Below are positions 1 to 64,000 of a stretch of DNA of 64,000 bases, one piece after another. Origin of the DNA: Pontibacter mucosus (GTDB lineage: Bacteria > Bacteroidota > Bacteroidia > Cytophagales > Hymenobacteraceae); assembly GCF_003054055.1 (NCBI RefSeq), contig NZ_QBKI01000005.1:1-64000 (forward strand), written 5' to 3'. The notes beneath the pieces are model-generated. The model was given only the letters and a program-made list of their open reading frames with translations. It was not told the origin of the DNA and ran no database searches. Within the stretch, counting starts at the first letter, position 1. The number at the start of each line of letters is the position of its first letter. The position numbers and the translations under genes are program-made.

Positions 1-2
1 AA

Positions 3-137
3 AGATGGAGGGTGGAGCGCTTCTTCGCCTGGCTCTTTAACTTCAGAAGAACGTTGGTCAGGCACGAGCACAAAGCAGAAAACTACCTGGCCTTCGTCCT
101 GCTGGCCTGCATGAAAATCATGCTAAGGTATTTTTGA
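3..137 (+). CDS. IS5-type transposase, C-terminal fragment (cut by window edge)
   Basis: An open frame runs in from the window edge and stops with TGA at 135-137. Its 44 residues begin RWRVERFFAWLFNFRR and continue with HEHKAENYLAFVLLACMKI, the typical end of IS5-family DDE transposases. The Glu of RWRVER would be the third catalytic acidic residue. The rest of the element lies outside the window, so it cannot be judged intact or dead. I did not find a clear terminal inverted repeat in the next 240 bases, which hold no gene. Confidence 0.75.
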   Translation, partial: RWRVERFFAWLFNFRRTLVRHEHKAENYLAFVLLACMKIMLRYF

Positions 138-381
138 GATAGCTTCTAGTTAATATCAAAAGTGACTTCTTACAATTTTATAACAACTAAGTGCTCAGGC
201 TCCTATATTATTTAATGACTCTCTCCCTTGTGGCACGCGGCTGGGGAGTAGGCTAAACAAACCTGCTATGGCAAGCTTTAATCCCGTTAAACTGCCCCTG
301 CCGGCATATCCTTTTAGCCAAAGTATAAGTATGAGGTGTATGAGGCCACAGGCCCGAGAACGTTAACCTAGCATTTATACT

Positions 382-678
382 ATGGATAATTACCCTTTGA
401 AACCCGAAAACATGCGCGTGCCGGAGCACCTCACCAAGGGCGAGGTGCAGAAGAGCCTCGATGAGCTGGACAATAAAATCAAAACCCTCAAGGCCCGCGT
501 AAACGCCACCGCTGCGGACTCCAACCATACGTACCATGAGCATATTGCCGGGCTGGAGCGGAAGCGCGAGCTGATCCTGCAGAAAATGGGAGACCCCAAC
601 AACAACGAGCAGCACTGGAGCGATTTGCACAAGAACATTGGTAACCTCCACAACGACGCCGACGGCCTGATGAAATAA
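382..678 (+). CDS. Hypothetical small charged helical protein
   Basis: This 98-residue protein has no signal peptide or membrane segment. It is rich in Lys, Glu and Asn. Residues 20-70 have the heptad-like pattern of a coiled coil (KSLDELDNKIKTLKARV, then GLERKRELILQKM). It stands alone, convergent with paaN, with a shared terminator directly after its stop codon. I do not recognise the family. Codon use fits the neighbourhood, so it is probably a real gene of unknown role. Confidence 0.6.
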   Translation: MDNYPLKPENMRVPEHLTKGEVQKSLDELDNKIKTLKARVNATAADSNHTYHEHIAGLERKRELILQKMGDPNNNEQHWSDLHKNIGNLHNDADGLMK

Positions 679-711
679 AGAAAGCCCCTGCGTTGCTGCA
701 GGGGCTTTCTT
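678..711. terminator. Bidirectional intrinsic terminator
   Basis: A perfect 14-bp stem (AAGAAAGCCCCTGC and its complement) with a 6-base loop sits between the convergent 98-aa gene and paaN. It is followed by AAGTATA at 714 and TATACTT at 726. Confidence 0.85.
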
Positions 712-732
712 ATAAGTATAAGTTTATACTTT

Positions 733-2406
733 TTAGCCTGCCACCGGCTCACGGAAGCCCACCCAGGTAAAGCGCTTGATCACAAACTCAGGGTTGGTGA
801 AAGAAGCGTTGCCCGCCGGGTTGCCGCCCGTTACGTGGAAGTCGGAGAAGCTGGCGTTCTGGTTCACGTAGATGCCGCCCGTCAGGTTGAAGCTAACGGG
901 GGTGCCTGCCAATCCCATCTCATCCATAATCTTCTCTTTCGTGGCTGGGTCTGTGGTATAGGCACCGCAGGAGATGGCGCCGTATTTGGAAGCCATTTCG
1001 CTCGCAATTTCTATACTTTGATCTGTGTCCTTTGTCTTGATGACTAACGCTACCGGACCGAACAGTTCGCGGCTGTAGCTTTCTTTCTCGGTGGCATCCA
1101 CCTCGTAGATAACCGGAGTGCAGGTGCGGGCCTTGCTGAACATCGGGTTCTCAAAATCGCAGCTGCTCAGCACCTCGCGGCCTTTCACGGTGGCAGCGCT
1201 CTTCACACGCTCGGCCGTGGCCGGGTTCTGGATGGCGCCCAGGATGTGCGGACCAGCCTTCGGGTTATTCACCAGCGCAGTCACGGCACCGGTTATTTTC
1301 TCCACCACCTGCTCGTAAGGCACCTTTTCTCCGGCTACCTTCACGCCGCTCTCCGGCACAAAGAAGTTCTGCGGGGCGGTACACATCTGCCCGGAGTAGA
1401 GCGAGATGGAAAAGGCCAGGTTCTGCACCACCTTGTCCAAATCCTCCACCGAGTCGAGGATAATCGAGTTAACGCCTGTTTTCTCGGTAAACGTTACCTT
1501 GCCGGGCAGACTCTCGATGTAATTTCCAAACTCGGAGCTACCGGTATAGTCAATGATTTTCACTTTCCGGTGCTCGGCCAGTTCCTTGGTGATCAGGCGG
1601 TCGTCGGCATCTACGGCCAGTTGGCAGATGTTTGGGTTGAGTCCGTTCTGCTGCAGCACCTTCTGTACTTCGGCTACCACAATGGCAATCGGCAGCACGG
1701 CTTTCGGGTGCGGCTTCACGATAACAGGGTTTCCTGTTACCAGGCTGGCAAACATGCCGGGCACCGTGTTCCAGGTCGGGAAGGTAGAGCAGCCGATGGC
1801 CAGGGCCACACCTTTTGGAACTGCCTTCCAGGTTTTATTTAGCTTGAGGTTATACTTGCCCATGGGCTTCTCCCACTCGGCGCTCTCCGGAAAACGGGTC
1901 TGCTCCTCATAACCGGCAGCCACGGCCTCCAGGGCACGGTCGGCGGCGTGCGGACCTGATGCCTGGAATGACATCATGTACGCCTGCCCGGTGGTGTGCA
2001 TGGTAGCGTAGGCAATCTCAAAGAAGCGGTTGCGCATATTCTCCAGCGCCTCTACCAGCAGGGCCGCCCTGTCCAGCGGCTTTACTTTACGCCATTGGTG
2101 GAAGGCCTCTTCAGCCCGGCTCACCAGCGTCTCCGGTTCAAAATATGGGTACTTTATGCCCAGCGGCTGTTGCTCATACGGCGACTCCTCCTGCCCCACC
2201 CAGGCCTGCTCGCCCTGCTGCAGCAACTCGGTAAATTTATTGTTCAGTGTGCCTTTATACTTTTCACGGCCTTCCTTGTCGGCGGTCTCACCATATACCT
2301 CCGGAGATGGGTTTTCGGGGTAATGGGCAAAGAAGGTACGCTGGTGCAAGGCTTGCACGGCCTTTTGTAATGTTTCGCGGTGTTTGTCGGCTAATTCCAG
2401 ATTCAT
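733..2406 (-). CDS. paaN: Phenylacetate degradation aldehyde dehydrogenase PaaN
   Basis: This is a 557-residue aldehyde dehydrogenase-fold protein of the PaaN type. That family is assigned to aldehyde oxidation after ring opening in the phenylacetyl-CoA pathway. The catalytic Cys is Cys342 in the motif SGQMCTAPQ, and the general-base Glu is Glu308 in VTFTEKTG. The nucleotide-binding region includes NPVIVKPHP near residue 230. It lacks the C-terminal MaoC-like hydratase domain of the bifunctional PaaZ, so ring hydrolysis would need another protein. It sits alone, 53 kb from paaABCD. The start at 2406 follows an A-rich leader without a Shine-Dalgarno sequence, usual for Bacteroidota. Another aldehyde dehydrogenase role is possible but less likely given the paa genes in the window. 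Confidence 0.82.
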   Translation of the reverse strand: MNLELADKHRETLQKAVQALHQRTFFAHYPENPSPEVYGETADKEGREKYKGTLNNKFTELLQQGEQAWVGQEESPYEQQPLGIKYPYFEPETLVSRAEEAFHQWRKVKPLDRAALLVEALENMRNRFFEIAYATMHTTGQAYMMSFQASGPHAADRALEAVAAGYEEQTRFPESAEWEKPMGKYNLKLNKTWKAVPKGVALAIGCSTFPTWNTVPGMFASLVTGNPVIVKPHPKAVLPIAIVVAEVQKVLQQNGLNPNICQLAVDADDRLITKELAEHRKVKIIDYTGSSEFGNYIESLPGKVTFTEKTGVNSIILDSVEDLDKVVQNLAFSISLYSGQMCTAPQNFFVPESGVKVAGEKVPYEQVVEKITGAVTALVNNPKAGPHILGAIQNPATAERVKSAATVKGREVLSSCDFENPMFSKARTCTPVIYEVDATEKESYSRELFGPVALVIKTKDTDQSIEIASEMASKYGAISCGAYTTDPATKEKIMDEMGLAGTPVSFNLTGGIYVNQNASFSDFHVTGGNPAGNASFTNPEFVIKRFTWVGFREPVAG

Positions 2407-2600: not shown

Positions 2601-5600
2601 ATGTTTACCCTTATCCCGCTGCCAAAGCGCAGCTTTGTTTTTGCAGTCCTTCTGCTGCTCTACGTACCCTTGCTGTACGCACAGCGCCCTGCTTTGGACT
2701 TTGGAGCTAAAACCATCCAAGGCAGAGTCGTCTACAAGCTCAAGCCACAGCAGTCCGCCCAGCTGCGCAAACCGAGCGGGGACGGCATGGCCCATGCCCT
2801 GCGGCAAATAGGGGCCCGCGACGTCGTGCAGAAGTTTCCGGAAGTGGCGGCCCGGCAAACCCTAGCCAACGCCCGCAAGGCAGCTCCAGCCGTAGACCTC
2901 TCGCTCCTATACGAGTTACAGTACGGCTCCGGCCATACGTTTGAGCAGGTGCAGGCCGCTTTGATAGCCACCGGACAGGTGGAGTACGTGGAACCGCTCT
3001 ACATCCGGGAGCCCTTTCACCAGCCCAACGACCCTGCCTCCGACTCCACCAAAACCACGCAGTATTACCTCAAAAAGATACAGGCCTATGCTGGCTGGGC
3101 CGTCGAGCAAGCCGATACCACCATCGTCATCGGCATCCTGGACACTGGTTTCCGCCTTTCCCACCACGACCTGAAGAGCAAGGTAAAGTATAACTACGCT
3201 GACCCGGTGGACGGGATTGACAACGACGGCGACGGACTGGTAGACAACTTCAGCGGCTGGGACTTTGCCGATGGCGACAACGACGTGTCGGACGATACAG
3301 CCTGGAAAGGCCACGGTACAGCTGTAGCGGGAGTAGCGGCGGGGGCCACCAACAATGGCATCGGCATTGCCGGCACCGGGTACAACGCCCTGTTTTTGCC
3401 CCTGAAGGTGTTCTCTTCCTATCCTGGCGGAGGATTTGGCGGATACGAGGCCATTGTCTACGCCGTTAACAAAGGATGTAAGGTTATTAACCTGTCCTGG
3501 GGTGGAACTGGCTTTTCGAAGTATGAGCAGGATGTCATCAACTATGCCGTGCTGGAAAAAGACGTGGTAGTGATTGCCTCAGGCGGCAACACCAACGCTT
3601 TCATGGACATCTATCCCGCCGCTTATGATAACGTTATCTCGGTAGGCGGCTCCAACAACCAGGATGTCAAGTATAAAGACCATACCTACAACTATAACAT
3701 CGACCTGATCTCGCCGGGCATCAACATTTACAGCACCTCCCAATCCGGCGACGAGCGGTATGGCAACGTGGGCGGCACCTCTTTTGCGGCACCTACCGTG
3801 GCAGGTGGCGCAGCCCTCATCCGCGCCCGCTTCCCGGAACTGAACGCCCGCCAGGTAGCCGAGCGCCTCCGGGCCAGCACCGACAGCATCTACCACCTGG
3901 ATGGCAACCGCCCCTACCTGGAGATGCTGGGCACCGGCCGCTTTAACCTGAAAAAGGCACTGAAGCTGGAAAACCCGAAATCGGTGCGGTGCGTGTCCTT
4001 CTCCCCTTCGCCAAAGCAGAGCCTGGTGGCCGGAAACGAGGTTACCATCGATGCCAGCTTCTTAAACTTCCTGGCGCCGGTGCAAGGTATGCAGGTAGAG
4101 CTCACCTCTTTGAGTCCGCACGTGCTGGTAACCCGGGGGCAGGCCACCTTGGGAAGTATGGGCACCATGGCCACGGCCTCCACCAAGGAGCCTTTTGTCA
4201 TCAAAATCAGCGAACGCTCCCCTTCCAACCTGAAAGTATACTTGCGCCTGGGCTTTACCGATGGGGAGTACACCGACTTTCAGCACTTTGCTATCGTTAT
4301 TAACCACAACTACGCTACCCTGACGGCCAACAACCTGCACCTGAGCCTCAACAGCGAAGGCAACATCGGCTACAACGGCCTGAACATGAGCCAGGGGGTT
4401 GGGGTAAAGTATAAAGGCAGCGCTTCTTTGCTCTTCGAGGGCGGGCTTATACTTTCCGCCGACAGCGGCAAGGTAGCCGATAACGTGCATAACTCCTCCT
4501 GGCAGAATAACCGGGGCTTTAAGCCGAGTATGCTTACCCGGGCCTACTACAACACCAGCATGGCCGACCAGGAACTGCGGGGCATTATGCAGACCGACGT
4601 GAGCGGACATCCGGAGGTAGAGGTAAAAACAGTGGCCTACGCCTGGTCAGAGTCGCCCTACCAGGACTTTGTGATAATGGAGTATAAGCTTACCAACCGT
4701 TCTTCCGAGACGATTCCCTACCTGCACGCGGGCCTCTTTGCGGACTGGGATATCGGCAACTATACCGAAAACAAAGCCGGCTGGGATGAGGACCTGCAGC
4801 TCGGTTACGCTTACCATGCCTACGCCGATCTGCCTTATACCGGGCTGACACTGCTGACGCCGGAGACGCTTCCTATTTACCATGCCATTGATAACATTGG
4901 CAGCAACGACTCTACCGTAACCGTGGACGACGGCTTCTCCAATGCAGAAAAGTATAAGGTAATCTCCAAAGGGGTGAGCCGCACGAAAGCCGGAGGAAAG
5001 AACGGCAATAGCATCTCGCACATTTTAGGTGCCACCGCCATCAACCTGGCCCCAGGCCAAACCAAAACGCTGGCCATTGCTATACTTGCCGGTGATGATT
5101 TGGAGGCTTTGAAGGAGCACGCCAGGACAGCGCAACTGAAGTATAGGGGCATCAAATCGGGTCCGGAGCCGGTGCCGATGGCTTTCCAGGCCTGCGTGGC
5201 GGATGCCGTGGTGATTGCCCCGCAAGGCGGAAGCTCCTTTAATTTCTACACCGATGCAAGCGCCTCGGTCCTGCTCGGAACGGGTCCTACTTATACGTTG
5301 ACAGAAGCACTGGAGAACAGCACCATCTACGTGGCGAATGCAGACTCTATTTACCTGAGCGATCTGGTGCCGATGGACGTGCAGATACTGTCTGCCTCGG
5401 AGGCTGGGTTTAAACCAGGAAACAACTTTGCACAGGTAAGCAAGGGAGTCCAGTTTCAGGACAACAGCCTGCATGCTACCAGCTGGCTCTGGGATTTTGG
5501 GGACGGAAATCAGTCGGCTGCACAGCACCCGCTGCACCAGTACAAAAAGCCGGGCACGTATACCATATCGCTTACAGTTACGAATGTGCTGGAGTGTACC

Positions 5601-10137: not shown

Positions 10138-10192
10138 AAGTATAAACTGGAAGGCCGTTGCTGTAAAAGTAACGGCCTTCCAGTTTATACTT
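10138..10192. terminator. Intrinsic terminator with AAGTATA/TATACTT stem base
   Basis: A perfect 22-bp stem (10138-10159 and 10171-10192) has an 11-base loop. The GC-rich part is CTGGAAGGCCGTT. The outermost seven bases of the arms are AAGTATA and TATACTT. Confidence 0.85.
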
Positions 10193-10387
10193 TGGCTATA
10201 CTTTTATACTTGAGTTATACTTTATACTTGGTTGCTATACTTTCCCAGCCCTCTCGCTGGCGCGAGTTTGCAACTCGTGCCTACGATGGTGTCAAGTTTG
10301 TAACTTAACTGGCTTGAAAAGCCATACTTATACTTTGGTTTTACTTTTATACTTGAGCTATACTCTTATACTTACCGGCTTATACTT
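10186..10387 (+). repeat. Array of ten TATACTT heptamers, one orientation
   Basis: Copies start at 10186, 10197, 10205, 10216, 10223, 10236, 10329, 10348, 10367 and 10381, all on the plus strand. They form two blocks separated by about 85 bases. Spacing is irregular, from 7 to 19 bases within blocks. No gene is present. This is the densest concentration of a motif that occurs throughout the window. Confidence 0.8.
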
Positions 10388-17411: not shown

Positions 17412-17461
17412 AAAGTATAAACGCCCTCCCAGCGCTTGGCCAGGGAGGGCGTTTATACTTT
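17412..17461. terminator. Terminator of fabD with AAAGTATA-type stem base
   Basis: A perfect 19-bp stem (17412-17430 and 17443-17461) has the GC-rich inner part ACGCCCTCCC. AAAGTATAA and TTATACTTT form its base. Confidence 0.85.
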
Positions 17462-17478
17462 ATACTTTCTAAAGGAGA

Positions 17479-18932: not shown

Positions 18933-21697
18933 TAGCGTACTATCTCCACCCAGCCCTTGTACGTGGCGCGCGCCTTGGCCGGGTCTAAGGTATAAAATTC
19001 AACTTCTGCCTCGTAGTAGTAGGTGCCGTCGGTCAGGCGGTTGCCATCGTTGTCAACGCCCGGCCAGTTAATGTAGCGGCCCTCTCCCTGCGAAACGGTT
19101 CCTCCATCATACACCTGCACACCCCAGCGGTTGTATACCCTGAAGCGCATGCTCCTGATAAAGGCCCGTACTTTCGGACGGAATACGTCATTGAGGTTGT
19201 CGCCGTTCGGTGTGATGATGTTTGGAAGTATAAACGAGATACAGTTGTCGTTGCACACCTCGTTGCTGAACGCGCTCTCGCGCCCGTTCACGTCGGTGGC
19301 CGTTACCACATAGCAGCCAGCGAAAGTTTCCAGGCCGCTGTGCGTATAGGTGGTCTCGGTGGTGGTGTCCAGCGGGGTATACTCGGCATCCAGTGTCGGT
19401 TTGAAGTATACGGTGTAATAGGCTATCTCATCGGTGCAGTCGCCGGTTATGTTGGGCACCCAGTTGAGCACGTTCTGGTAAGGTGGCTCGGTTGGGTTCT
19501 GATTAAACACGTTACAATCGAGCTGCTGTATACTTAGCTCCGGCGGGCAGATCAGCTTCGGCAGCGTAACGCAAACGCGCTGGCTGTAGTTGAGCAACGG
19601 CTCCGGTATCCCCTTAATCTGGTAGGTACCAGCTGTTACTACGTAGTAGCAGTACTCCTGCCCGCGCACCAGTTCCTCGCCATTAAATGTACCCCTGTCG
19701 GTGTAGGAGCCGCTCGTAGCCGTTGCCGACACGCTGTCAATCAGCACAAACTCGCCACCCGTTGCCTGACGGTAGATATAGTGCTGCAGCACCTCATTTT
19801 TCCACGGCACGTTGTAGGTCCAGTTTAAGGCTACTTCTTTCGCTTCTCCCTCAGCCGGTGTTAAACTTAAGTATACACTGGAGGCCTCGGCGCTATCGCG
19901 CAGTAAGGAGGGCTGTCCGCCAGGGGCCGGGCTGCGGTAAAACTCCAGGCGATAACGGTAAGCGTTTTCTACTGTGTTCAGGTTTCTGTCGACAAAGGTA
20001 GTGTCGGCCATGTTGCGGGTGCGCTTCACCTCTGTAAAGCCGTTGCCGGCCTCCATGCCCACCTTGCGGTACAGGCGGTACTCCAGCGGCGGGGTGAGCT
20101 TCTCTACGTCAATCGGCTGTGTCCACTTCACAGTTATCTGGCCGTTGGTGGTGCTGGTTTCATCTACGGTCACATTGGTCAGGTAAGGGATGTCCTGGTC
20201 GATAACCACGCATACTTCCAGGGAGGCAAGGCTCTCCCCGCGCCCCGGAGCCGGGAAAGTCGCGTAGATGATGTAGCAGTATTCCACCCCAGCCTTCAGG
20301 TTTGGGTCGTCGTCGAAGAAGGTTGTCTCACCGGCATCCACCTCCCCTATCAGCACATAGCCCGTAGAGGCAGGCACACCGGTCTGGCAATAGTCCGGCA
20401 CAAAGTTACTAGGCCCCTCCCGCCTGTAGATGCGTATTTTATCGGCATTCTGGCAGGTGTAGGAATCCCAGGTGAGGGTGACGTTGCGGTCGGCGCTGGT
20501 GGCATCCAGGTTCTCGGGCGCAGGCCCTATCACGGTGATGTTCCAGGGCTGCAGGTCGGCCAAGCGCTTATCGCCCTGCGGCCTGACGTCTTCAGCACGG
20601 AAAATCACCTGGTAAGGCGAGCGGCGCACATTGGCGCATTCGGTGTTCCAGATAAACAGGCCTGTGGCAGAGCCCGGGGTATTGGTTCTTTGCTCGAAAG
20701 TGGCCGGAGGCACAATCCCGCTACCGGCAACGGTCAGGTTGATCAAGTCGCCATCCGGGTCGGTGGCCCTTACGATGCCACGCAGTGTCGTACCAGCTAC
20801 CACGCAGGTATCCTTCGGTTCCAGCACAGGCGGCCGGTTTTCGTTCTCCTCCACGTTAATGCGCATGTCGCGCACCACCTCGCCTATCTTCACAGCACCA
20901 CCGTTCGGCCCGCGCCGCCACTCTTCCACCACAAAGGCAATGTTGTACCTGCCCGCAAGGCAGGGAGCATCCCAGGTGAGCTGACCGGTGATGGGATCGA
21001 GCCGGAAGAAGGCAGGGCCGCTATCGTCGGAGGTACGGCAGTTGGCCACCTGATCGGGGTGGCGGTAGCCGGGCACTACAGTAATGGCGCCGCTGGGATC
21101 GCGGTAGCGCGGGGCCACCAGCTTAAAGGAAAGGCTGTCACCGTCGGCATCATAAGCGCCGGGGTTGTGCACAAACTTGCGGAACATCGCCGCATCATCA
21201 ATGGGCTCCACGGTAAGCACCGGAGTGGAGTTAAAGCCGCGAAGCGCGTTTATATCGATGGTCGTGGAGATGAAGAAAGAACGCTGGTCTGACGGGGCCG
21301 CCATGTTCAGGATATTATTGTCGCGGTTCTCCCCTACCCAATACGTCGTATAAGTACCATCTGAGGGGTACGTATATTCCCATTCAAACACCTCGCGATC
21401 GGTTTCGGAGTTAATCGGGGTAACGGATTTGCGGGGAACGATGATAGACGTGGTACCAACCCCTGGATAAATAGTTACCTCCGGGTCCTCGGCCTGCGAG
21501 AGGTGGTTGGTATAGATAATCATGGTGAAAAAGAAGCGGCGGGGATTAGGGTTTGGCGTCGTGTCCCGCTTGGCAGTAATATCCCCTGCTCTAATATGAG
21601 TAGCCTGTGCCTCCGGAGAAGCACCCAACAGCAACAGAATCAACACCCACAACAGACTCCCATGCAGCAGATACTTATGGCGTAAATGGTTTAGCAT
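18932..21697 (-). CDS. Large secreted protein with gliding-motility C-terminal domain (T9SS cargo)
   Basis: This 921-residue protein has a signal peptide ending near residue 33 (PEAQA). A cadherin- or Ig-like beta region spans about 35-390, with repeated Asp-rich turns such as AYDADGDSLSF and ATDPDGDLINL. Several fibronectin type III-like repeats follow, from 390 to 820. Residues about 830-921 match the gliding-motility-associated C-terminal domain (PNIITPNGDNLND, RVYNRWGVQVYDGG, DGTYYY), the type B sorting signal for the type IX system. It is likely a cell-surface adhesin or matrix protein; ligand unknown. Confidence 0.88.
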   Translation of the reverse strand: MLNHLRHKYLLHGSLLWVLILLLLGASPEAQATHIRAGDITAKRDTTPNPNPRRFFFTMIIYTNHLSQAEDPEVTIYPGVGTTSIIVPRKSVTPINSETDREVFEWEYTYPSDGTYTTYWVGENRDNNILNMAAPSDQRSFFISTTIDINALRGFNSTPVLTVEPIDDAAMFRKFVHNPGAYDADGDSLSFKLVAPRYRDPSGAITVVPGYRHPDQVANCRTSDDSGPAFFRLDPITGQLTWDAPCLAGRYNIAFVVEEWRRGPNGGAVKIGEVVRDMRINVEENENRPPVLEPKDTCVVAGTTLRGIVRATDPDGDLINLTVAGSGIVPPATFEQRTNTPGSATGLFIWNTECANVRRSPYQVIFRAEDVRPQGDKRLADLQPWNITVIGPAPENLDATSADRNVTLTWDSYTCQNADKIRIYRREGPSNFVPDYCQTGVPASTGYVLIGEVDAGETTFFDDDPNLKAGVEYCYIIYATFPAPGRGESLASLEVCVVIDQDIPYLTNVTVDETSTTNGQITVKWTQPIDVEKLTPPLEYRLYRKVGMEAGNGFTEVKRTRNMADTTFVDRNLNTVENAYRYRLEFYRSPAPGGQPSLLRDSAEASSVYLSLTPAEGEAKEVALNWTYNVPWKNEVLQHYIYRQATGGEFVLIDSVSATATSGSYTDRGTFNGEELVRGQEYCYYVVTAGTYQIKGIPEPLLNYSQRVCVTLPKLICPPELSIQQLDCNVFNQNPTEPPYQNVLNWVPNITGDCTDEIAYYTVYFKPTLDAEYTPLDTTTETTYTHSGLETFAGCYVVTATDVNGRESAFSNEVCNDNCISFILPNIITPNGDNLNDVFRPKVRAFIRSMRFRVYNRWGVQVYDGGTVSQGEGRYINWPGVDNDGNRLTDGTYYYEAEVEFYTLDPAKARATYKGWVEIVR

Positions 21698-21847
21698 AGA
21701 TCATTTGGGTTAGGCGGTAAATATAGTATAATCTTAAACTAAACTTATACTAAAATGTTGTGTATATGGGCTGTCAGCGGGGAAAAAGATGTTGCTTCTC
21801 TGAATTACGGCCTTCAATTTAGATTGATTCAAAATATTGTGGAGAAA

Positions 21848-21878
21848 TTGCTTTCTACGTGGCCTCCGTGTACCTTTG
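21848..21878 (+). promoter_or_regulatory. sdhCAB promoter (TTG-N20-TACCTTTG)
   Basis: TTG at 21848-21850 and TACCTTTG at 21871-21878 match the Bacteroidota -33 and -7 boxes with 20-base spacing. They lie 52 bases before the sdhC start. This is one of the two best promoters in the window. Confidence 0.8.
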
Positions 21879-21929
21879 GGCAGTAAAAACACTACGCTTA
21901 ATCACAATTTAAATCTATAACAAACACAG

Positions 21930-22604
21930 ATGAATTGGTTTACTAAAACGTTTTCCAGTACAGTCGGGCGAAAGATCGTAATGTCTGTTACGGGCCTTTT
22001 CCTTTGCTCCTTCCTGGTAGTGCACCTGATCGGTAACCTTCAGTTGTTCCGAAACGACGGTGGAGAGGCCTTTAACATTTACTCAGACTTCATGGCCCAC
22101 AACGGCATCATCCGTTTCATGGAGATCATTCTGGTACTGGGTTTCCTGTTCCACATTTATGATGCCCTCGTTCTGACGCGCCGCAACAAGGCTGCCCGTC
22201 CTGTTGCTTACGCCAACAGCCACCCGGAGGAGAACAGCTCCTGGGCTTCGCGCAACATGGGCCTGCTGGGCACGGTTATCCTGGTGTTCCTGATCGTGCA
22301 CCTTTGGAACTTCTTCGTCCCGGCCCGTTTCGGGGGTCTGGAGGCCGTTCCGGACAAAGACTACGACAACCTTTACAGCGAGATTGTACTGGCGTTTAAG
22401 AACCCGATATACGTGGCCATTTACGTTATCTCCATGGTAGCCCTGGCGTACCACCTGATCCACGGCTTCCAGAGCGCCTTCCAGACCCTGGGCCTTGACC
22501 ACAAGAAATACACTCCTTTTATACAGAAGTTCGGCGTGGCCTTCTCCATCCTTATTTGCCTTGGCTTCGCGAGCATTCCGCTGTACTTCTTCTTCTTTGT
22601 GTAA
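21930..22604 (+). CDS. sdhC: Succinate dehydrogenase cytochrome b558 subunit
   Basis: This is the single membrane anchor of the Bacteroidota-type complex II, with 224 residues and five membrane helices. It binds two haems b and passes electrons from succinate to menaquinone. Candidate haem-ligand histidines lie in VVHLIGNL, FLFHIYDAL, IVHLWNFF and YHLIHGF. It is the first gene of sdhCAB with its own promoter, and sdhA starts 22 bases after its stop. Confidence 0.93.
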   Translation: MNWFTKTFSSTVGRKIVMSVTGLFLCSFLVVHLIGNLQLFRNDGGEAFNIYSDFMAHNGIIRFMEIILVLGFLFHIYDALVLTRRNKAARPVAYANSHPEENSSWASRNMGLLGTVILVFLIVHLWNFFVPARFGGLEAVPDKDYDNLYSEIVLAFKNPIYVAIYVISMVALAYHLIHGFQSAFQTLGLDHKKYTPFIQKFGVAFSILICLGFASIPLYFFFFV

Positions 22605-22626
22605 TTAAAAGCTATCTATCATTACT

Positions 22627-24561
22627 ATGATATTAGATTCAAAAATCCCGGAGGGCGCCTTAGCCGAGAAGTGGGACAAGCATAAATTCAACGTAAAGCT
22701 GGTAAACCCGGCCAACAAGCGTAAATACGATATTATCGTGGTGGGTACGGGCCTTGCCGGTGCTTCTGCCGCTGCTTCTTTCGGAGAGCTGGGCTACAAC
22801 GTGAAAGCCTTCTGCTTCCAGGATTCTCCCCGCCGCGCGCACTCTATCGCGGCGCAGGGTGGTATAAACGCCGCCAAAAACTACCAGAACGACGGCGACT
22901 CTATCTTCCGTCTGTTCTACGATACGATTAAAGGTGGTGACTACCGTGCCCGTGAGGCCAACGTATACCGCCTGGCCCAGGTGTCTGTTGACATCATCGA
23001 CCAGTGCGTGGCGCAGGGTGTGCCTTTTGCCCGTGAGTACGGCGGCCTGCTGGCCAACCGTTCGTTCGGTGGCGCGCAGGTATCGCGTACGTTCTACGCC
23101 CGCGGCCAAACGGGACAGCAGTTGCTGCTGGGTGCCTACTCTGCCCTGAACCGCCAGATTGCATACGGTAAGGTAAAAATGTACCCACGCACCGAGATGC
23201 TGGACCTGGTAATGGTGGATGGCAAAGCGCGCGGTATTGTGGTGCGTAACCTCATCACCGGTAAAATAGAGTCGCACAGCGCGCATGCCGTTGTACTGGC
23301 AACAGGTGGTTATGGCAACGTATTCTACCTCTCTACCAACGCCATGGGCTCCAACGCTACAGCGGCCTGGAGAGCTTACAAGAAAGGTGCTTTGTTCGCC
23401 AACCCTTGCTATACTCAGATTCACCCAACCTGTATCCCTGTTTCCGGCGATTACCAGTCTAAACTGACGCTGATGTCAGAGTCGCTGCGTAACGATGGCC
23501 GCGTATGGGTACCGAAAACAAAGGAAACGGCTGAGAAGCTGCGCAGAGGCGAAATCAAAATAAACGACATTGCCGAGCAGGACCGTGATTACTACCTGGA
23601 GCGTAAGTACCCGGCCTTCGGTAACCTGGTGCCTCGTGACGTGGCTTCCCGCAACGCGAAGCTGGTTTGCGACGAAGGACGCGGCGTAGGTGCCTCTGGC
23701 CTTGCCGTATTCCTCGACTTTGCCGATGCTATCAGACGCGAAGGCCAGCCGGCTATTGCCGCCAAGTATGGCAACCTGTTCGATATGTATGAGAAGATCA
23801 CCGACGAGAACCCATACGAGCAGCCAATGCGCATTTACCCGGCTGTACACTACACCATGGGTGGCCTTTGGGTAGACTACAACCTGATGACCAACATCCC
23901 GGGACTGTACGCTGCCGGTGAGGCAAACTTCTCAGACCACGGTGCAAACCGCCTGGGTGCCTCTGCGCTGATGCAGGGTCTGGCTGACGGCTACTTCGTG
24001 CTGCCTTACACCATCGGTGATTACCTGGCGAAAATGCCTTACGACAAAGTAGCGGTGGACCACCCTGCTTTCAAAGAAGCTGAGCAGAATGTTGTCGATA
24101 TCAACAACAGGTTACTCTCCATCAACGGTAACCGCACTGTGGATGACTTCCATAAGGCGCTGGGCCACATTATGTGGGAGTACTGCGGCATGGCCCGTAA
24201 CGCGGAAGGCCTGCAGTTTGCCAAGCAAGAGATCCGCAAGCTGCGCGACGAGTTCTGGCGCGATGTGAAAGTAGTTGGCGTGAACGAGGAGCTGAACATC
24301 ACCCTGGAAAAAGCCAACCGCGTTGCTGACTTCCTGGAGTTGGGCGAACTGATGGTAGAAGATGCCTTGCACAGAAACGAGTCTTGCGGTGGTCACTTCC
24401 GTGAAGAATACCAGACACCGGAGAACGAGGCCCTTCGTGATGATGAGAACTTTGCATACGTAGCCGCCTGGGAGTTTACAGGGGTAGGCAACGATCCGGT
24501 GCTGCACAAGGAGGACCTGAAGTTCGAAAACGTGAAGCTAACGCAGCGTAGCTATAAATAA
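22627..24561 (+). CDS. sdhA: Succinate dehydrogenase flavoprotein subunit
   Basis: This 644-residue catalytic subunit carries covalent FAD and oxidises succinate to fumarate. The dinucleotide-binding motif [16 protein letters not shown] lies near residue 37. [14 protein letters not shown] contains the His expected to hold FAD. Substrate-site blocks [16 protein letters not shown] and [19 protein letters not shown], and the FAD-binding [20 protein letters not shown], are present. Like the rest of this operon it has no AAGTATA heptamer in either orientation. Confidence 0.97.
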
Positions 24562-24562
24562 T

Positions 24563-24640
24563 GATTAATGAATGATTAAGAATGCGTCTGGAAGCAGGCG
24601 GTTTCAGGTTCTTAATTAGAGATTCTTAATTCGTAATTAA
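24563..24640. repeat. Inverted word repeat in sdhA-sdhB spacer
   Basis: The spacer reads as repeats of GATTAATGAATGATTAAGAA followed by inverted TTCTTAATT-type words, around a short hairpin (CTGGAAGCAGGCGGTTTCAG). It could form a stem in the operon mRNA between sdhA and sdhB. Confidence 0.5.
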
Positions 24641-24647
24641 AAAGAAA

Positions 24648-25430: not shown

Positions 25431-25452
25431 CTAGCTTTGCAAACAAAGTATG

Positions 25453-25485
25453 GAAAGGCGGGGCAGTTACTGTTCCCGCCTTTTC
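25453..25485 (+). terminator. sdh operon terminator
   Basis: The arms GAAAGGCGGG and CCCGCCTTTTC pair around a 12-base loop, 22 bases after the sdhB stop. Confidence 0.8.
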
Positions 25486-25518
25486 TATTATACACTGCGC
25501 TACCTATTGGCAACTTTT

Positions 25519-25552
25519 TTTATACTTCCTCCAAGTATAAATGAGTATACTT
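25519..25552. repeat. TATACTT-AAGTATA hairpin plus third copy
   Basis: TTTATACTT (25519-25527) and AAGTATAAA (25533-25541) form a 9-bp stem with loop CCTCC, and a further TATACTT lies at 25546. It sits in the gap before the flavin reductase gene, after the sdh terminator. Confidence 0.6.
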
Positions 25553-29242: not shown

Positions 29243-29253
29243 ATCTATGTTTC

Positions 29254-36722: not shown

Positions 36723-36770
36723 TTACTCTGTAATCAGTATCCTTTGGCTAAAAATTGTTTTGCTAATCGT

Positions 36771-38234: not shown

Positions 38235-40333
38235 CAGCCAAGTATAATAGTTATCGTTTTCTCTTCGTTTATATCGGTTCCGGGAGCCAAGGACTGTTTC
38301 TTCACACGCTTGCCCATCCCCTGCACATCCACTTTCAGATGCTGGTTGCCAAGTATGTACAAGGCATCTCTCAGCGTCATTCCCACCACATCCGGCACCT
38401 TATTCTGCAGCACCGGGTTGGGTTTAAACTCCAGAGAGCGTCTCTGAGCTTCCACCTTCACCCAATCCTCCTCCGTTACGCCCGCCCGGGTGCTTACGCC
38501 CAGGTTGTTATAGATCAGCTTCAGATCGTCCAGACTTCCTGCCTGCACCACCGGCAAGCTCTCCTTGTCCGGAACTACGCGCTCGTGCATGGGCTTGTGC
38601 ATGCCCAGGTCGAGGGCATAGGCCTTGTCGGCCAGTTCCTTAAACACCGGCGCCGCCACGTCGCTGCCGTACACGTTCACCCCTTTCGGGCTGTCGATGA
38701 TCACGATGCAGCTATACTTCGGGTTATCGGCCGGGAAGTAGCCGGCAAAGGAAGTAGAGTACTCGCGCACATAGCGTCCGTTCTTCACTTTGCGGGCCGT
38801 ACCGGTTTTACCTGCAATTTTATAGTCTGCGTTGCGGATGCTACGAGCCGTTCCATTCTCCACCACGCCTTCCAGCATCACCTTCAGCTTCTTCAGCGTT
38901 TCGTCTGAGCAGATCTTCTCGTTCAGCACGCGGGTCTGAAACGATTGCACCACCTCATCCACCTTGCGGATTTCCTTCACGATGATCGGCTGAATCAGGA
39001 CGCCGTTATTGGCCACCGCGTTATAGAAGGCCAGCGTATGCAGGGGCGACAGCTTGAGCTCGTACCCGATGGACATGGAGGTAAGCGTGGTGCCGTACCA
39101 ATCCTTGTCATGCGTACTCTTCATGTAAGGCACCGCCTCTCCATCCATCTGGAAGCCCAGAGTGCTGTTCAATCCAAACTTGTTCAGGTAATCGACATAA
39201 GCCTGCTGCTCATGTCCGAAATATTGCTCCATCAGCTTGGCGATGCCGATGTTGGATGACTTCTCAAAAACCTGCTGTACCGTTATCTTACCGTAGCCGT
39301 TAATCTTGGCGTCGGTCATAATGGTGTTTTTGATGCGGTAGCGGCCATCCCCGGCGTCCACCGTATCGGTTAGGCTGATGTCGGGGCGGTGCTCAAACAA
39401 GGCCATCATAGAGGCCAGCTTAAACGTAGAACCCGGCTCGGTTCGCCCCTGGTTGCCTACTGCGTAGTTATAGTCCTCTATATAACCGCCCTTGGTTTTG
39501 CCCAGGTTGGCAATGGCCTTTATCTCGCCTGTTTTCACCTCCATCAGAATCACGGTTCCATACTCCGCGTCCGTGCGCTCCAGCGCCTTGTACAGCGCGC
39601 TCTCGGCCACGTCCTGCAGATTCACGTTCAGCGTGGTTTTGATATCATACCCGTGCTGCGGCTTCACCTCCGTTCCATCGTAGATGGGCTTGCTGCCACC
39701 GGCTATGCGCTCGAAAAGCGCCTCTCCGTCTACCCCGGACAGGTTGGCGTTGAAGCTGTACTCCAGGCCGGCCCCGTTCTTATCCTCGTTTATGAAGCCA
39801 ATGGTACGCTCGGCTAGTATACCAAATGGCTTGAAGCGTTTTTCTACTTTCTCAAAAATCACCCCGCCCTTGTTCTTGCCTTCCCGGAAGATGGGCCAGC
39901 GGGACATCACCTTCTTATCCTGGTAGCCAATCTGCCTGCTGTTCAGGCGAACGTACCTTTTGCCGGAGTGCCGCGCGTTCTTCATCTTGCGGCGGTAGTG
40001 TTCGGCCGACTTATCACCATAGAAGCGCGAAAGCAGCATGGCCAGCGAATCTACCCCTGCATTAAACACCTCCGGCTTTGCCACGGTGGGGTCGAAGGCC
40101 ACCCGGTAAAACGGCAGCGACGTGGCCAGTATGCTCTCGTTATCGGAGAGGATATTGCCACGCGTTGCGTGCACCGGCTTGTAAAAAATGCGGCGCTCGT
40201 TAGAGATATTCTTCCACTTGTCGCCGTCCAGAAACTGGATATGCACGATCTTATACACGATCGCGCATGCAAACAGGCAGACAAAAAGGAAGACCAGCCT
40301 AACCCGAACCAGTATGGATTTCTTAATACTCAT
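38234..40333 (-). CDS. ftsI: Division-specific penicillin-binding protein (transpeptidase) with PASTA domain
   Basis: This 699-residue class B PBP crosslinks septal peptidoglycan. A single N-terminal membrane helix (LVFLFVCLFACAIVYKIV) is followed by the pedestal domain. The transpeptidase domain has SxxK in PGSTFKLASM, SxN in KSSNIGIAKLM and KTG in AGKTGTARKV. A C-terminal PASTA domain (VPDVVGMTLRDALYILG, ending KTITIILG) makes it SpoVD-like. It overlaps the ftsL-like gene by 11 bases. Confidence 0.94.
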   Translation of the reverse strand: MSIKKSILVRVRLVFLFVCLFACAIVYKIVHIQFLDGDKWKNISNERRIFYKPVHATRGNILSDNESILATSLPFYRVAFDPTVAKPEVFNAGVDSLAMLLSRFYGDKSAEHYRRKMKNARHSGKRYVRLNSRQIGYQDKKVMSRWPIFREGKNKGGVIFEKVEKRFKPFGILAERTIGFINEDKNGAGLEYSFNANLSGVDGEALFERIAGGSKPIYDGTEVKPQHGYDIKTTLNVNLQDVAESALYKALERTDAEYGTVILMEVKTGEIKAIANLGKTKGGYIEDYNYAVGNQGRTEPGSTFKLASMMALFEHRPDISLTDTVDAGDGRYRIKNTIMTDAKINGYGKITVQQVFEKSSNIGIAKLMEQYFGHEQQAYVDYLNKFGLNSTLGFQMDGEAVPYMKSTHDKDWYGTTLTSMSIGYELKLSPLHTLAFYNAVANNGVLIQPIIVKEIRKVDEVVQSFQTRVLNEKICSDETLKKLKVMLEGVVENGTARSIRNADYKIAGKTGTARKVKNGRYVREYSTSFAGYFPADNPKYSCIVIIDSPKGVNVYGSDVAAPVFKELADKAYALDLGMHKPMHERVVPDKESLPVVQAGSLDDLKLIYNNLGVSTRAGVTEEDWVKVEAQRRSLEFKPNPVLQNKVPDVVGMTLRDALYILGNQHLKVDVQGMGKRVKKQSLAPGTDINEEKTITIILG

Positions 40334-40754
40334 CTGGGCTCACGATAACCTGGTATGGCGGCCGGGAGCTTTCCTCCAGGCCGAGCGGGGCCACATTGCG
40401 GGCCACCTCCGATTGCTTACTCGCCTCCATGTACTCCGACTTCAGCGTGGAGTAGTCGGCGCGAAGGTCTTCCACCTCCACTTTCACCTTGTCGATCTGC
40501 CGTATGGTTTTGACGGCGAAATGGGTATTGCCTATGTATAAAAGCGTAATGCCCGTCAGAAACAGAACGCGCGGCATATACTTAAGCGGCACCCCCTCTT
40601 CAAACAAGGCATCAACATTGGCGTATTTATCCAGCAGTGCAAACAGGCTGAATCCCTTCTTCTTTGGCCTTACCGGCTCCTCTGCCTCTTGCTTCACTCG
40701 CGCCGCGTTCTTCTTCGGGGCGTCTGTATTTTTAATGAGTACATTAGAAGCCAT
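40323..40754 (-). CDS. ftsL: FtsL-like divisome protein
   Basis: This 143-residue bitopic protein has a charged cytoplasmic N-terminus and one membrane helix at about 64-82 (VLFLTGITLLYIGNTHFAV). A coiled-coil segment follows (IRQIDKVKVEVEDLRADYSTLKSEY, approximately). Sequence identity in FtsL is low. The call rests on size, topology and its place between rsmH and ftsI, where Bacteroidota have this gene. Confidence 0.75.
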   Translation of the reverse strand: MASNVLIKNTDAPKKNAARVKQEAEEPVRPKKKGFSLFALLDKYANVDALFEEGVPLKYMPRVLFLTGITLLYIGNTHFAVKTIRQIDKVKVEVEDLRADYSTLKSEYMEASKQSEVARNVAPLGLEESSRPPYQVIVSPDEY

Positions 40755-40781
40755 ACTTGTTTCCTCTAGCTAATAAGTTTG

Positions 40782-41702
40782 TTACTTTTCTTCGCGCTCC
40801 TCCTTCTTCTCTGCCACTCTTAGCTTGGCACTTCTGGAGCGGCTGTTCTGCAGCAGCTCCTCCTCTGTTGGCGTGATCGGCTTGCGATGCACCGACTCCA
40901 GCGGCTTTATCTCGTTCCCGAAAAGGTCTTTCTCCACCTCCCCGAAAAATTTACCCTTTGCAATAAAATTCTTCACCATCCGGTCTTCCAGCGAGTGATA
41001 CGAAATCACCGACAGCCTTCCGCCCGGCTTCAGCGCCTCGGCCGCCTGCTCCAGCATTTCCTCCAGCGCCTTCATCTCGTCGTTCACCTCGATGCGGAGC
41101 GCCTGGAACACCTGCGCCAGGTACTTATTCTCCTTTCCCCTCGGGGTGCAGGAGCTGATGACCTGCTTAAACTGCGCGATGGTTTCCAATGGCTGGCGGT
41201 TGCGCTTCTCCACCACTGTTCTGGCCAGGGTTTTGGCGTTCTTCACCTCCCCGTAGATGCCGAAGATGCGGTGCAACTGCTCCTCTGAGTAAGTCTCCAG
41301 CACCTCCTGCGCCGTGATACCGGCATCCGGGTTCATGCGCATGTCCAACGGTCCGTCGAAGCGGGTGGAGAACCCACGCTCCGGCACATCAAACTGATGC
41401 GACGAAACCCCCAGGTCTGCCAGAATCCCATCTACTTTCTTTACACCATACAGGCGCAGGTACTTTTTCAAATCCCGGAAGTTGGCGCGCACAAACTGAA
41501 AGTTTGGTCCCTCCAACCTCTTCGACTGCTCCTGCGCGTCGCTGTCCTGATCAAAACTGTAGAGCTTACCAGTTGTCAGCTCTTTCAGGATGCGCGCCGA
41601 GTGGCCACCGCCACCAAACGTCACATCCACATATATTCCGTCTGGCTTTATGGCCAGCGCCTCAACCGACTCCTCCAGTAAAACTGGGCGATGATATTCC
41701 AT
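40782..41702 (-). CDS. rsmH: 16S rRNA (cytosine(1402)-N(4))-methyltransferase
   Basis: RsmH (MraW) methylates C1402 in the ribosomal P site. The N-terminal block YHRPVLLEESVEAL and the SAM motif YVDVTFGGGGHSARIL are diagnostic. DGILADLGVSSHQFD and RLSVISYHSLEDRMVKNF are further family blocks. The 306 residues are normal. It overlaps the mraZ stop by one base. Confidence 0.96.
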   Translation of the reverse strand: MEYHRPVLLEESVEALAIKPDGIYVDVTFGGGGHSARILKELTTGKLYSFDQDSDAQEQSKRLEGPNFQFVRANFRDLKKYLRLYGVKKVDGILADLGVSSHQFDVPERGFSTRFDGPLDMRMNPDAGITAQEVLETYSEEQLHRIFGIYGEVKNAKTLARTVVEKRNRQPLETIAQFKQVISSCTPRGKENKYLAQVFQALRIEVNDEMKALEEMLEQAAEALKPGGRLSVISYHSLEDRMVKNFIAKGKFFGEVEKDLFGNEIKPLESVHRKPITPTEEELLQNSRSRSAKLRVAEKKEEREEK

Positions 41703-42169
41703 TATATACTTGTCTCCTCTGCCGGTTTATCACCCAAAAACTTCTGGGCGAGCTGCGAGAAACTCTGCTGGTCCTTGATCAGGAACTCCTCATACTTATC
41801 AGGGTTCCAGATCTCCACGCGGTTGCCCAGCCCCACCACAATCGCCTCCTTCTCCAGGTCCGCGAAACGGGCCATGGTTTTGGGAACGATAAAGCGCCCG
41901 GCGCCATCCAGCTCTATCTCCGTGTTACCCCGAAAGAAGTTTCGCTGGAAGTGGCGGTACTCCTCGTTAAACTCATTCAGGCCGGCCACCTTATCGTAAA
42001 TCACTTTCCACTCTGCCTTCGGATACAGCACCAGACACGGCTCAAACCCCCTCATCAGCACCACATGATTGCCAGACGCCTCCGGCAGGTTGGATTTTAT
42101 CTTCGCAGGTAAAACCAACCTTCCCTTCGGATCGATCTTGCACTCGTATTCGCCGGAGAGGAAGTTCAT
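41702..42169 (-). CDS. mraZ: Transcriptional regulator MraZ
   Basis: MraZ is an AbrB-like double-fold DNA-binding protein that controls the dcw cluster by binding repeated boxes upstream of its own gene. The 155 residues start MNFLSGEYECKIDPKGRLVLP and contain the two MraZ repeats; the second reads IELDGAGRFIVPKTMARFA. The start at 42169 is preferred over an in-frame ATG at 42238. The promoter -7 box lies at 42209-42216, so the longer version would begin upstream of transcription, and family proteins begin at this Met. Confidence 0.95.
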   Translation of the reverse strand: MNFLSGEYECKIDPKGRLVLPAKIKSNLPEASGNHVVLMRGFEPCLVLYPKAEWKVIYDKVAGLNEFNEEYRHFQRNFFRGNTEIELDGAGRFIVPKTMARFADLEKEAIVVGLGNRVEIWNPDKYEEFLIKDQQSFSQLAQKFLGDKPAEETSI

Positions 42170-42208
42170 AGACGATGTCGCTTTGGCCCGTATAGACTTT
42201 GGACTATA

Positions 42209-42238
42209 CAAATGTAGCCATTCAACCAAAGATAGCAA
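42209..42238 (-). promoter_or_regulatory. mraZ/dcw promoter (TTG-N19-TACATTTG)
   Basis: On the minus strand TTG (42238-42236) and TACATTTG (42216-42209) are spaced by 19 bases, an ideal Bacteroidota promoter. The expected start is near 42202. Three MraZ-type boxes begin directly upstream of the TTG. Confidence 0.85.
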
Positions 42239-45633: not shown

Positions 45634-45640
45634 GCTTTTC

Positions 45641-45700
45641 AAAGTATAAAGTATAAAAAAAGGAGCCTGACCGGGCTCCTTTTTTTATACTTTATACTTT
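45641..45700. terminator. Bidirectional terminator with doubled AAGTATA motif
   Basis: A perfect 27-bp stem (45641-45667 and 45674-45700) has a 6-base loop between convergent genes. Each arm carries two overlapping copies of the heptamer outside a short GGAGCC core. Confidence 0.92.
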
Positions 45701-45713
45701 GCAGTTATGCTCT

Positions 45714-62821: not shown

Positions 62822-63080
62822 GTTAGTGTATACTTTGCTCTGATTAGTCTTGTTGTAAAACTTCTTTTGGTGCTGAAAGTTACGACAATCCCTCCTGTTA
62901 CAGGAAAGTATCGTATAAATTTTAGGATGCGGGTGCCGGCTACACAATAATATTTTTGAATATTAGTTGTAAAATATATTAAAAAAAAGCTGAACTTTAC
63001 CGAACGCTGCCATGGCGATGGTTCCCACCTGTGCCCATGCTTGTGTAATCAACGCATCCTTTTAACATGAAAACAACAAC

Positions 63081-63650
63081 ATGCTGTACAAACTAACGCT
63101 AAAAAACTGTGAAAAAACGGTAGTGGTGGACGACACTACTTATGACTACATCCAAAGCAATGCATACCTGCAACAAATTGAGTTTCTGAAGCACCTGCGC
63201 ATCCACTCCAACGGGTATGCCTTCTTCCAGAAAAACTGGCCGCTCAAGAACGGGAAATACCGCAACGAGACCATTTATCTGCACAAGATGATTGGCGAGC
63301 AACTGCTGGACAAGCCGGAGAGCGACCTGAAGCTGTACGTGCACTTTAAAAACGGCAACAAGCTCGATTGCCGCCGCGAGAACCTGGAGTGGGCCCCGCT
63401 CTGCAAAATCGTGCGCAACACCACCAAAACCGAGAACAAGCTCGGGGTGCGCGGCGTGCACAAGGAGGCTCAGAAATACCGGGCCATCATCCACCATAAC
63501 AAGCAGCGTATCAACCTGGGCACTTTCGAGACCCTGCAGGAGGCCGCCCTGGCTTACAGCAGAAAATCGGAAGAGCTCTTCGGTAAAACCAAAAGCCTGA
63601 AAACCTTCTCCAAAGTGCTGGAGGAAGAGGAGTCTGCACCATTAAGCTAA
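63081..63650 (+). CDS. HNH-like / AP2-domain DNA-binding protein
   Basis: This 189-residue protein has a region (about 70-115) like HNH homing-type endonucleases (IYLHKMIGEQLL, then VHFKNGNKLDCRRENLEWAP), with catalytic residues eroded. An AP2/ERF-type domain follows (about 120-172: LGVRGVHKEAQKYRAII, then INLGTFETLQEAALAYSRKSEELFG). In phages such proteins are selfish endonucleases. Here it is a lone chromosomal gene with ordinary codon use and no mobile genes beside it, so a DNA-binding role is more likely than cutting. The 259-base gap before it is AT-rich near 62950-62995 with no clear promoter. Confidence 0.7.
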   Translation: MLYKLTLKNCEKTVVVDDTTYDYIQSNAYLQQIEFLKHLRIHSNGYAFFQKNWPLKNGKYRNETIYLHKMIGEQLLDKPESDLKLYVHFKNGNKLDCRRENLEWAPLCKIVRNTTKTENKLGVRGVHKEAQKYRAIIHHNKQRINLGTFETLQEAALAYSRKSEELFGKTKSLKTFSKVLEEEESAPLS

Positions 63651-63660
63651 TTCTGCTTAA

Positions 63661-63701
63661 CTTGCATAAAAGGTACTTCCTTTACGTGCCTTTTATGCAA
63701 G
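63661..63701 (+). terminator. Hairpin terminator
   Basis: CTTGCATAAAAGGTAC pairs with GTGCCTTTTATGCAAG (one G-U) around a 9-base loop, 10 bases after the AP2-type gene. Confidence 0.75.
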
Positions 63702-63704
63702 TAT

Positions 63705-64000
63705 ATGAACGAAGAGACAACCCTTAGCGACCTATTAAAGCTTCACCGCCACACCTTCGCCCCTGTTCTGGACACTGACCTGAACGCCGACAGCGTGTGC
63801 TTACTCGACTTTTCCGAAAAAAACGAGCTGCTGCAAGAAACCGACCTGCAGGATACAGTTGCTTTCAATGCCGCCGTGGCGCAGCTGCTGCAACAGCAAC
63901 AGGCCACCACAGGCGTAGGGGGTTATCTGGAGGACCGCTTTATTTACCGCCGCAGCCGCCATTTTGATGCCGAGACCCAAAGCCGCAACCTGCACCTGGG
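63705..64000 (+). CDS. Probable M23 peptidase, N-terminal part (cut by window edge)
   Basis: An ATG at 63705 opens a frame that runs off the window after 98 codons. The stretch GGYLEDRFIYRRSRHFDAE followed by SRNLHLG resembles the region just before the first zinc-ligand His in Bacteroidota M23 (LytM-type) peptidases, where HLG begins the catalytic domain. No signal peptide is seen. The call rests on a short segment. Confidence 0.55.
   Translation, partial: MNEETTLSDLLKLHRHTFAPVLDTDLNADSVCLLDFSEKNELLQETDLQDTVAFNAAVAQLLQQQQATTGVGGYLEDRFIYRRSRHFDAETQSRNLHL

Follow-up and report, generated by a model that had tools for sequence, protein, structure and literature searches.

A highly iterated seven-base word with dialects across the genus Pontibacter, a candidate tag for the recognition of self DNA

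Why would a bacterial chromosome repeat the same seven bases more than twice per kilobase, within genes as well as between them? The question is raised by the first 64,000 nucleotides (forward strand) of contig NZ_QBKI01000005.1 of Pontibacter mucosus (Bacteroidota, assembly GCF_003054055.1), hereafter the window, where the heptamer AAGTATA and its complement TATACTT recur from one end to the other. The original prediction, made from the letters alone, described the heptamer as a highly iterated motif with the profile of an uptake-signal-like or chromosome-marking sequence. We read AAGTATR, with a probability of about 0.6, as the local dialect of a genus-wide self-DNA recognition tag that would be kept abundant by natural transformation.

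We counted 139 exact copies of AAGTATA over positions 1..64000 on both strands (62 forward, 77 reverse), against 4.50 ± 2.06 copies, and at most 10, in 100 dinucleotide shuffles of the window. No other 7-mer in these 64 kb was as over-represented (139 observed, 4.6 expected under a first-order Markov model), and the relaxed form AAGTATG, described earlier as common, was in excess under the same model (59 vs 6.3). The initial hand count of 24 copies in the first 10.2 kb was exact: 24 copies end at or before position 10200 and a 25th straddles it. A Markov model of order 5, which had been proposed as a check, gave a small ratio for the heptamer when run on the window (139 vs 125.5), because its component 6-mers AAGTAT (207 vs 21.8) and AGTATA (174 vs 16.7) share the same excess. 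In the genome as a whole, 23 contigs totalling 5,231,950 bp, there are 11,818 copies of AAGTATA (5,911 + 5,907), i.e., 2.26 per kb, against 333 (169 + 164) of the reversed word. The excess over shuffles in the window and the genome-wide counts show that the motif is real and genome-wide, and larger than first claimed. We also made the suggested comparison with related genera: among 241 genomes sampled across the order, the excess of AAGTATA over its reversed word did not go beyond about 2.5-fold outside the genus of the window.

The effective word is A-A-G-TATR followed by a base other than T. At the position directly after the heptamer (position 8) we found A in 82 of the 139 copies, C in 25, and T in five; the base directly before it was A in 71. 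Of the words in the window that differ from AAGTATA by one base, AAGTATG alone, with G at position 7, stood in strong excess (the 59 copies noted above). Relative to expectation, changes at positions 1 to 3 were 1.7 to 4.6 times as frequent in eight of nine cases, and those at positions 4 to 6 were 0.3 to 1.7 times as frequent. The word is no palindrome: the C that it would need at position 8 is present in just the 25 copies mentioned.

Genes were called from the excess of third-position substitutions in aligned relatives, which gave 54 genes and a window that is 87% coding. Genes contain 85 copies of AAGTATA (1.52/kb) and the spaces between them 53 (6.45/kb), with one further copy at an edge, so that the intergenic density is 4.2-fold the genic one. 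Because gene calls require aligned relatives, 2.6 kb without them were counted as intergenic; excluding these, 41 copies remain in 5.6 kb. Of the coding copies, 44 are in sense and 41 in antisense orientation, and each of the six possible frames holds between 8 and 22 of them, so the early description of a motif present in genes and gaps, in both orientations and in every frame, was accurate. A context-dependent mutation bias or a codon effect without function might in principle produce an iterated word. Words of the CAGGTA/ACCTG type are mildly over-represented in the window and in many genomes of the genus, including genomes that lack the motif, and a background word bias therefore exists. 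Yet this cannot explain 139 copies where 4.5 are expected, nor an excess that extends to every frame and to the spaces between genes while near-misses at positions 4 to 6 show no clear excess. Shuffling synonymous codons within genes (200 shuffles) left 9.9 ± 2.7 coding copies, with a maximum of 17, against the 85 observed. The motif excess is not codon bias, which the original prediction had named as a possible refutation, and we consider a functionless bias very improbable and largely refuted.

The DNA uptake sequences (DUS) of Neisseriaceae are described as present in both orientations, in excess between genes, and arranged as inverted pairs within rho-independent terminators (PMC2397512). 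We picked four inverted pairs of the motif by eye in the window, folded them and compared them with shuffles. Three were far more stable than the shuffles, and thus showed this trait of uptake sequences. The strongest (45640..45701, -29.4 kcal/mol as DNA, z = -11.8) has two tandem copies per arm around a GC stem and lies between the convergent genes 45280-45633 (+) and 45714-46325 (-). The second (26288..26337, z = -10.8) is a terminator-like hairpin with one copy per arm, directly beyond the 3' end of ftsZ and between the convergent genes 25621-26145 (+) and 26350-27903 (-). The third (17412..17467, z = -6.8) has one copy per arm and an adjoining tandem copy, and is located between genes on the same strand. 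The fourth pair (26178..26240) is weaker (z = -1.75), and 12 of 200 shuffles folded equally well.

These arrangements bear on the possibility that the word is a Chi-like recombination signal for a nuclease of the RecBCD/AddAB type. Like Chi it is short and asymmetric, and in 11 stretches of one genome of the genus (G259), with the leading strand assigned by the sign of the GC skew, copies were mildly biased towards the leading strand (129 : 92). The Chi of E. coli has a strand bias of about 3:1, well above this value, and the window itself has 62 forward and 77 reverse copies. The near equality of sense and antisense copies in genes, the 30-fold excess and the hairpin pairs are also unlike Chi, and such a role seems to us quite unlikely.

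To see how far the word extends we compared 50 genomes of the genus, which as grouped here includes one record titled Botryobacter ruber. About half of them have AAGTATA in the thousands, the others few. A first sampling of 20 kb covered 16 of 20 chosen genomes with few AAGTATA and showed AGGTATA in nine and TATATAA in one; the other four were later covered by the division and cell wall (dcw) gene cluster. This cluster (26350..42238, minus strand) was the block used for the 50-genome comparison; its ftsZ and murD were identified by NCBIfam, and the other genes were named from their order and from conservation in relatives. The full table of dialects was drawn from the syntenic dcw block of the 49 relatives (word table from 20 to 64 kb), with later samples added, so that the label of each genome is based on 20 to 280 kb and on whole-genome counts of three words, which agree with the samples. 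When all 16 ANNTATA words were tabulated, motif-bearing genomes peaked at one or a few of them. AAGTATA was the dialect of 20 genomes (4,114-11,818 copies per genome), AGGTATA of 12 (5,748-9,303), and AACTATA of five (11,674-13,168). Two genomes were mixed (8,118 AACTATA with 7,552 AAGTATA, and 6,094 with 9,116). One genome had ATATATA (102 vs 3.1 expected, in an 80-kb sample only) and one GGTATR (GGTATA, 107 vs 13.3, in a 60-kb sample only), and nine had no strong word. Some labels are blurred: an AACTATA genome (G202) also has 5,110 AAGTATA, and an AAGTATA genome (G284) has 3,531 AACTATA, four times its control. TATR is common to all dialect words, which differ mainly in one dinucleotide, and in four dialects T after the word is rare (4 to 6% at position 8). 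In the nine genomes without a strong word AAGTATA still occurs 1.3 to 4.0 times as often as its reversed form, perhaps as a relic. Named loci (four of 80 were left out, being shorter than 9 kb) showed AAGTATA in P. flavimaris and P. chinhatensis, AGGTATA in P. roseus, P. indicus, P. lucknowensis, and P. ramchanderi, and AACTATA in P. populi, P. burrus, and P. fetidus. Those without a word included P. diazotrophicus, P. pamirensis, P. qinzhouensis, P. beigongshangensis, and Botryobacter ruber.

The dialects follow the species tree. We built the tree from 11 dcw proteins (4,784 columns, 50 rows, LG+G4, midpoint root), with branch support from the Shimodaira-Hasegawa-like approximate likelihood ratio test (SH-aLRT). 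The 12 AGGTATA genomes form one clade, and the AACTATA and mixed genomes another, both with SH-aLRT of 100. The seven dialect labels require 10 changes on the tree, against a mean of 26.8 when shuffled. AAGTATA is spread over the remainder of the tree and is therefore most simply the ancestral dialect. Absence of the motif falls in four places (four changes, of which three are forced by well-supported branches). Genomes without the motif are larger: the nine average 5.80 Mb (range 4.9 to 6.5), and the 41 others 4.63 Mb (range 3.8 to 5.6). A tree-corrected regression under Brownian motion gave +1.07 Mb for the motif-less state (p = 9e-6), with sizes rounded to 0.1 Mb except for the genome of the window, and motif status taken from samples.

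Dialects and absences are also a feature of the highly iterated palindrome HIP1 of cyanobacteria and its alternates, to which the original prediction had likened the motif. By analogy, a methyltransferase or a methylation-dependent repair system could read ANNTATR and bias mutation or repair, with dialects arising from changes of methyltransferase specificity. HIP sites are highly iterated, with lineage-specific alternates and absences, and the alternates have been matched to methyltransferases (PMC4390886); the density of 2.26/kb, the genic copies in both orientations, the replacement of dialects, and the absences in Pontibacter all fit such sites. A methyltransferase of asymmetric sites would moreover be compatible with a core that persists while one dinucleotide varies. 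HIPs are, however, GC-rich palindromes, whereas ANNTATR is asymmetric and AT-rich, which weakens the likeness, and the inverted pairs in hairpins and the intergenic excess are DUS-like. We regard the methylation-based explanation as unlikely. As to a chromosome-marking role, an abundant nucleoid or chromosome-organising protein binding the word would account for its spread over window and genome, both orientations, the AT-rich core, and the intergenic excess. Alone it would not explain why dialects replace each other, why lineages lack the word, or why it caps hairpins, and we likewise give this idea a low probability.

How do individual sites change? We aligned the window with six relatives (80 to 93% nucleotide identity). 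Exact copies were fully conserved at 44-78% of aligned places, and AT-rich control 7-mers at 30-64% in the same six pairwise alignments. Unconserved copies mostly carried one to three substitutions. Copies change by point substitution; insertion of a mobile element, which we had considered as their source, is rejected, since gaps met just 4-10 of the 82-124 aligned copies. Across one dialect border, four of 24 aligned AGGTATA sites of one genome (G268) read AAGTATA in the other (G269) and 12 of 24 differ at two or more positions. Some sites were thus converted in place.

To our knowledge, the uptake-tag systems described so far belong to Neisseriaceae and Pasteurellaceae, both of which use pilus machines. 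In Riemerella anatipestifer, transformation was reported without detected pili, depending on ComEC, DprA, ComF, RecA, and four proteins without assigned function, one of them with helix-hairpin-helix (HHH) motifs (PMC8459023). When DNAs compete, R. columbina favours its own, and the frequent words that its authors list are all A/T-rich and of low complexity (PMC7965970). Riemerella gives a Bacteroidota precedent for transformation without pili and for preference of own DNA. We found ComEC in all 50 Pontibacter genomes, an intact ComEA-like protein with repeated HHH motifs (about 304-346 aa) in 49, and DprA in all 50, with a broken frame in two. A search for the pilus-type ATPase PF00437 (PilB/PilT/GspE-type) found no full-length motor in any of the 50 genomes, all of which gave weak partial matches only (secretins and pilins were not searched): the best match scored 25.9 bits over about 60 of 370 positions, and three genomes were just over the cut-off of 24.9 bits. 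The known, pilus-borne kind of reader therefore looks excluded, and a reader of the ComP type is unlikely on these profile matches. We also considered DUF5689, a domain of one of the proteins essential in Riemerella, as a genus-wide reader and rejected it: it matched in 22 of the 50 genomes, and not in that of the window. In six of these 22 the loci were inspected, and the domain either had SusD-/SusC-like or other genes, as identified by eye, next to it or was part of a protein longer than 1,000 aa.

One genome provides a direct link between transformation genes and upkeep of the motif, although it stands alone and at the end of a continuous range. G259 (a single contig; loci L140 and L160) is the only genome in which ComEC (two frames with stops), HHH (three frames with stops), and DprA (two stops) are all broken, whereas most neighbouring genes and 13 dcw genes show no damage. 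In a check of this genome, 12 of the 58 listed query rows were broken: four were ComEC and HHH (two query rows each), four were low-identity frames (43-59%, 4 or 5 stops) that we took as spurious, and four had a single stop. One of the 14 dcw queries gave no row. G259 has apparently undergone a natural loss of transformation. It ranks last of the 20 AAGTATA genomes in enrichment (x8, followed by x10) and in excess of AAGTATG (x3.4, followed by x3.5), and first in one-off copies per exact copy (1.18, ahead of 1.11 and 1.02).

Several observations weigh against an uptake tag. The lead of G259 is small in both of the latter measures (1.18 vs 1.11 and 1.02; x3.4 vs x3.5), and its AT-richer composition lowers its fold values. 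Decay of individual sites was not seen in its dcw block, where it retained 14 of 29 shared sites (the other 11 genomes retained 8 to 19 of 25 to 30). Another genome (G275) has broken ComEC and DprA and yet 9,303 copies of AGGTATA, which points to a recent loss or an assembly error. All nine motif-less genomes have intact ComEC, HHH, and DprA; these genes therefore do not predict the motif, and if our model is right these genomes lost specificity rather than transformation. Around comEC and the HHH gene in 20 genomes, we found no gene that followed dialect or loss of the motif, within the reach of queries taken from the proteins of one genome (G000) and, for HHH, a second (G256), to which genes absent from both are not visible. 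Neither ComEC nor HHH diverged faster between dialects than within them, and dialect-linked columns numbered two in HHH and seven in ComEC. In a stricter leave-one-out test of the dcw block, shared motif sites were kept more often than shared control 7-mers in six genomes and less often in the other six; as evidence, site-by-site conservation is therefore weak or uneven, and the case is carried by distribution and dialects. Genes acquired recently are poor in DUS. By contrast, the 2.6 kb of the window that aligned to none of the six relatives contain 13 copies (5.0/kb) and are not motif-poor, although genes and gaps are inseparable there. The density of 2.26/kb is also close to the maximum reported for DUS (5,918 copies in 2.4 Mb, PMC3630211). 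Finally, a search of the open literature found no report on the transformability of Pontibacter.

Set against this, a self-DNA recognition tag is the reading that we prefer, and from the pattern of copies, dialects, and genes we infer an uptake bias, a receptor, and a drive. Pontibacter would take up free DNA through a pilus-independent machine that includes ComEC, the ComEA-like HHH protein, and DprA, with a putative receptor binding A-NN-TATR. Fragments bearing the word would be taken up and recombined more often, and the word would spread by uptake-driven molecular drive wherever coding constraint permits; the drive of uptake words has been treated before (PMC1939737). A switch in the dinucleotide read by the receptor (from AG to GG, AC, or TA, or to GG without the leading A) would cause the genome to be slowly rewritten, with mixed genomes en route, and where specific reading was lost the word would decay. 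The fuller claim, namely pilus-independent recognition of self DNA by a new kind of receptor, with several dinucleotide switches in A-NN-TATR, whole genomes rewritten, and non-reading lineages about 1 Mb larger, we advance tentatively, at somewhat less than even odds.

The motif is best read as acting like DUS or the uptake signal sequences (USS) of Pasteurellaceae, but it should not be filed as either, because the pilus motor needed there was not found here and the uptake role is one we infer. The uptake-signal-like profile originally proposed thus stands for abundance, orientations, frames, intergenic excess, hairpin pairs, and, most strongly, dialects, and fails at the pilus motor. The USS of Haemophilus influenzae, at about one per kb, resemble the Pontibacter word in being short and in both orientations, and differ in sequence, phylum, and number of dialects; Pontibacter is also apparently without pilus machinery. 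DUS and USS are read by a type IV (minor) pilin with pilus motors (ComP in Neisseriaceae). DUS dialects follow the tree around an invariant core, and one genome has two dialects (Frye et al., PMC3630211). These traits, like the thousands of copies on both strands and the terminator pairs, are shared with Pontibacter. The Pontibacter word is a 7-mer, in contrast to the 10- to 12-mers of DUS, belongs to another phylum, and is missing from several lineages with intact transformation genes. Riemerella (Flavobacteriaceae) shares with Pontibacter ComEC, DprA, and an HHH protein, which are needed there (PMC8459023), and differs in that no clear uptake word emerges from the data given, in which the top k-mers are A/T runs (PMC7965970), and in DUF5689. 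The earlier statement that no such element has been described for Bacteroidota agrees with our search of the open literature (subscription papers fall mostly outside it), in which that Riemerella report came nearest.

The layout of the window qualifies the expectation of a similar density throughout: the motif is indeed spread across it, but not evenly. The densest cluster (10138..10387) has 11 copies in 250 bp, 10 of them in one orientation, between genes 8840-10102 (+) and 10820-11437 (-). Two overlapping inverted copies (4234..4243) lie in the coding sequence 2601-5894 (+) of a subtilisin-like protein with a type IX secretion system (T9SS) type A sorting domain. The largest stretch without copies (19876..25520) covers the 5' part of gene 18932-21697 (-), which matches a T9SS type B sorting domain only below the cut-off, and a region with sdhA (22627-24561, +). 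A foreign island was considered for this stretch and rejected, because it holds sdhA and has aligned relatives. Two other words were seen outside the genus. Adhaeribacter terrigena (L218, 1101-20337) has a different iterated word, AAAACGCTA, with 11 copies in 21 kb, 10 of them in one orientation. Whole-genome counts of this word and its reversed form were 1,410 vs 51 in A. terrigena and 343 vs 50 in A. soli, and 35 vs 25 in Rufibacter latericius and 53 vs 19 in Sabulibacter ruber. A word in Zeaxanthinibacter enoshimensis (L237, 19818-20369) was rejected as iterated, being part of a tandem repeat with at least six copies of a 108-bp unit.

Within a single genus of Bacteroidota, a dense tag with about five dialects would offer a replicate of the known uptake-tag systems that evolved independently. 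The mixed genomes would be dialect switches caught half-way, and they are accompanied by four absences on the tree and by a genome with decayed transformation genes. Such a system makes it possible to test how the reader changes along with its tag, whether the tag is a form of selfish drive or of mate recognition, and whether its loss lets genomes grow. The motif may also give a handle for transforming Pontibacter.

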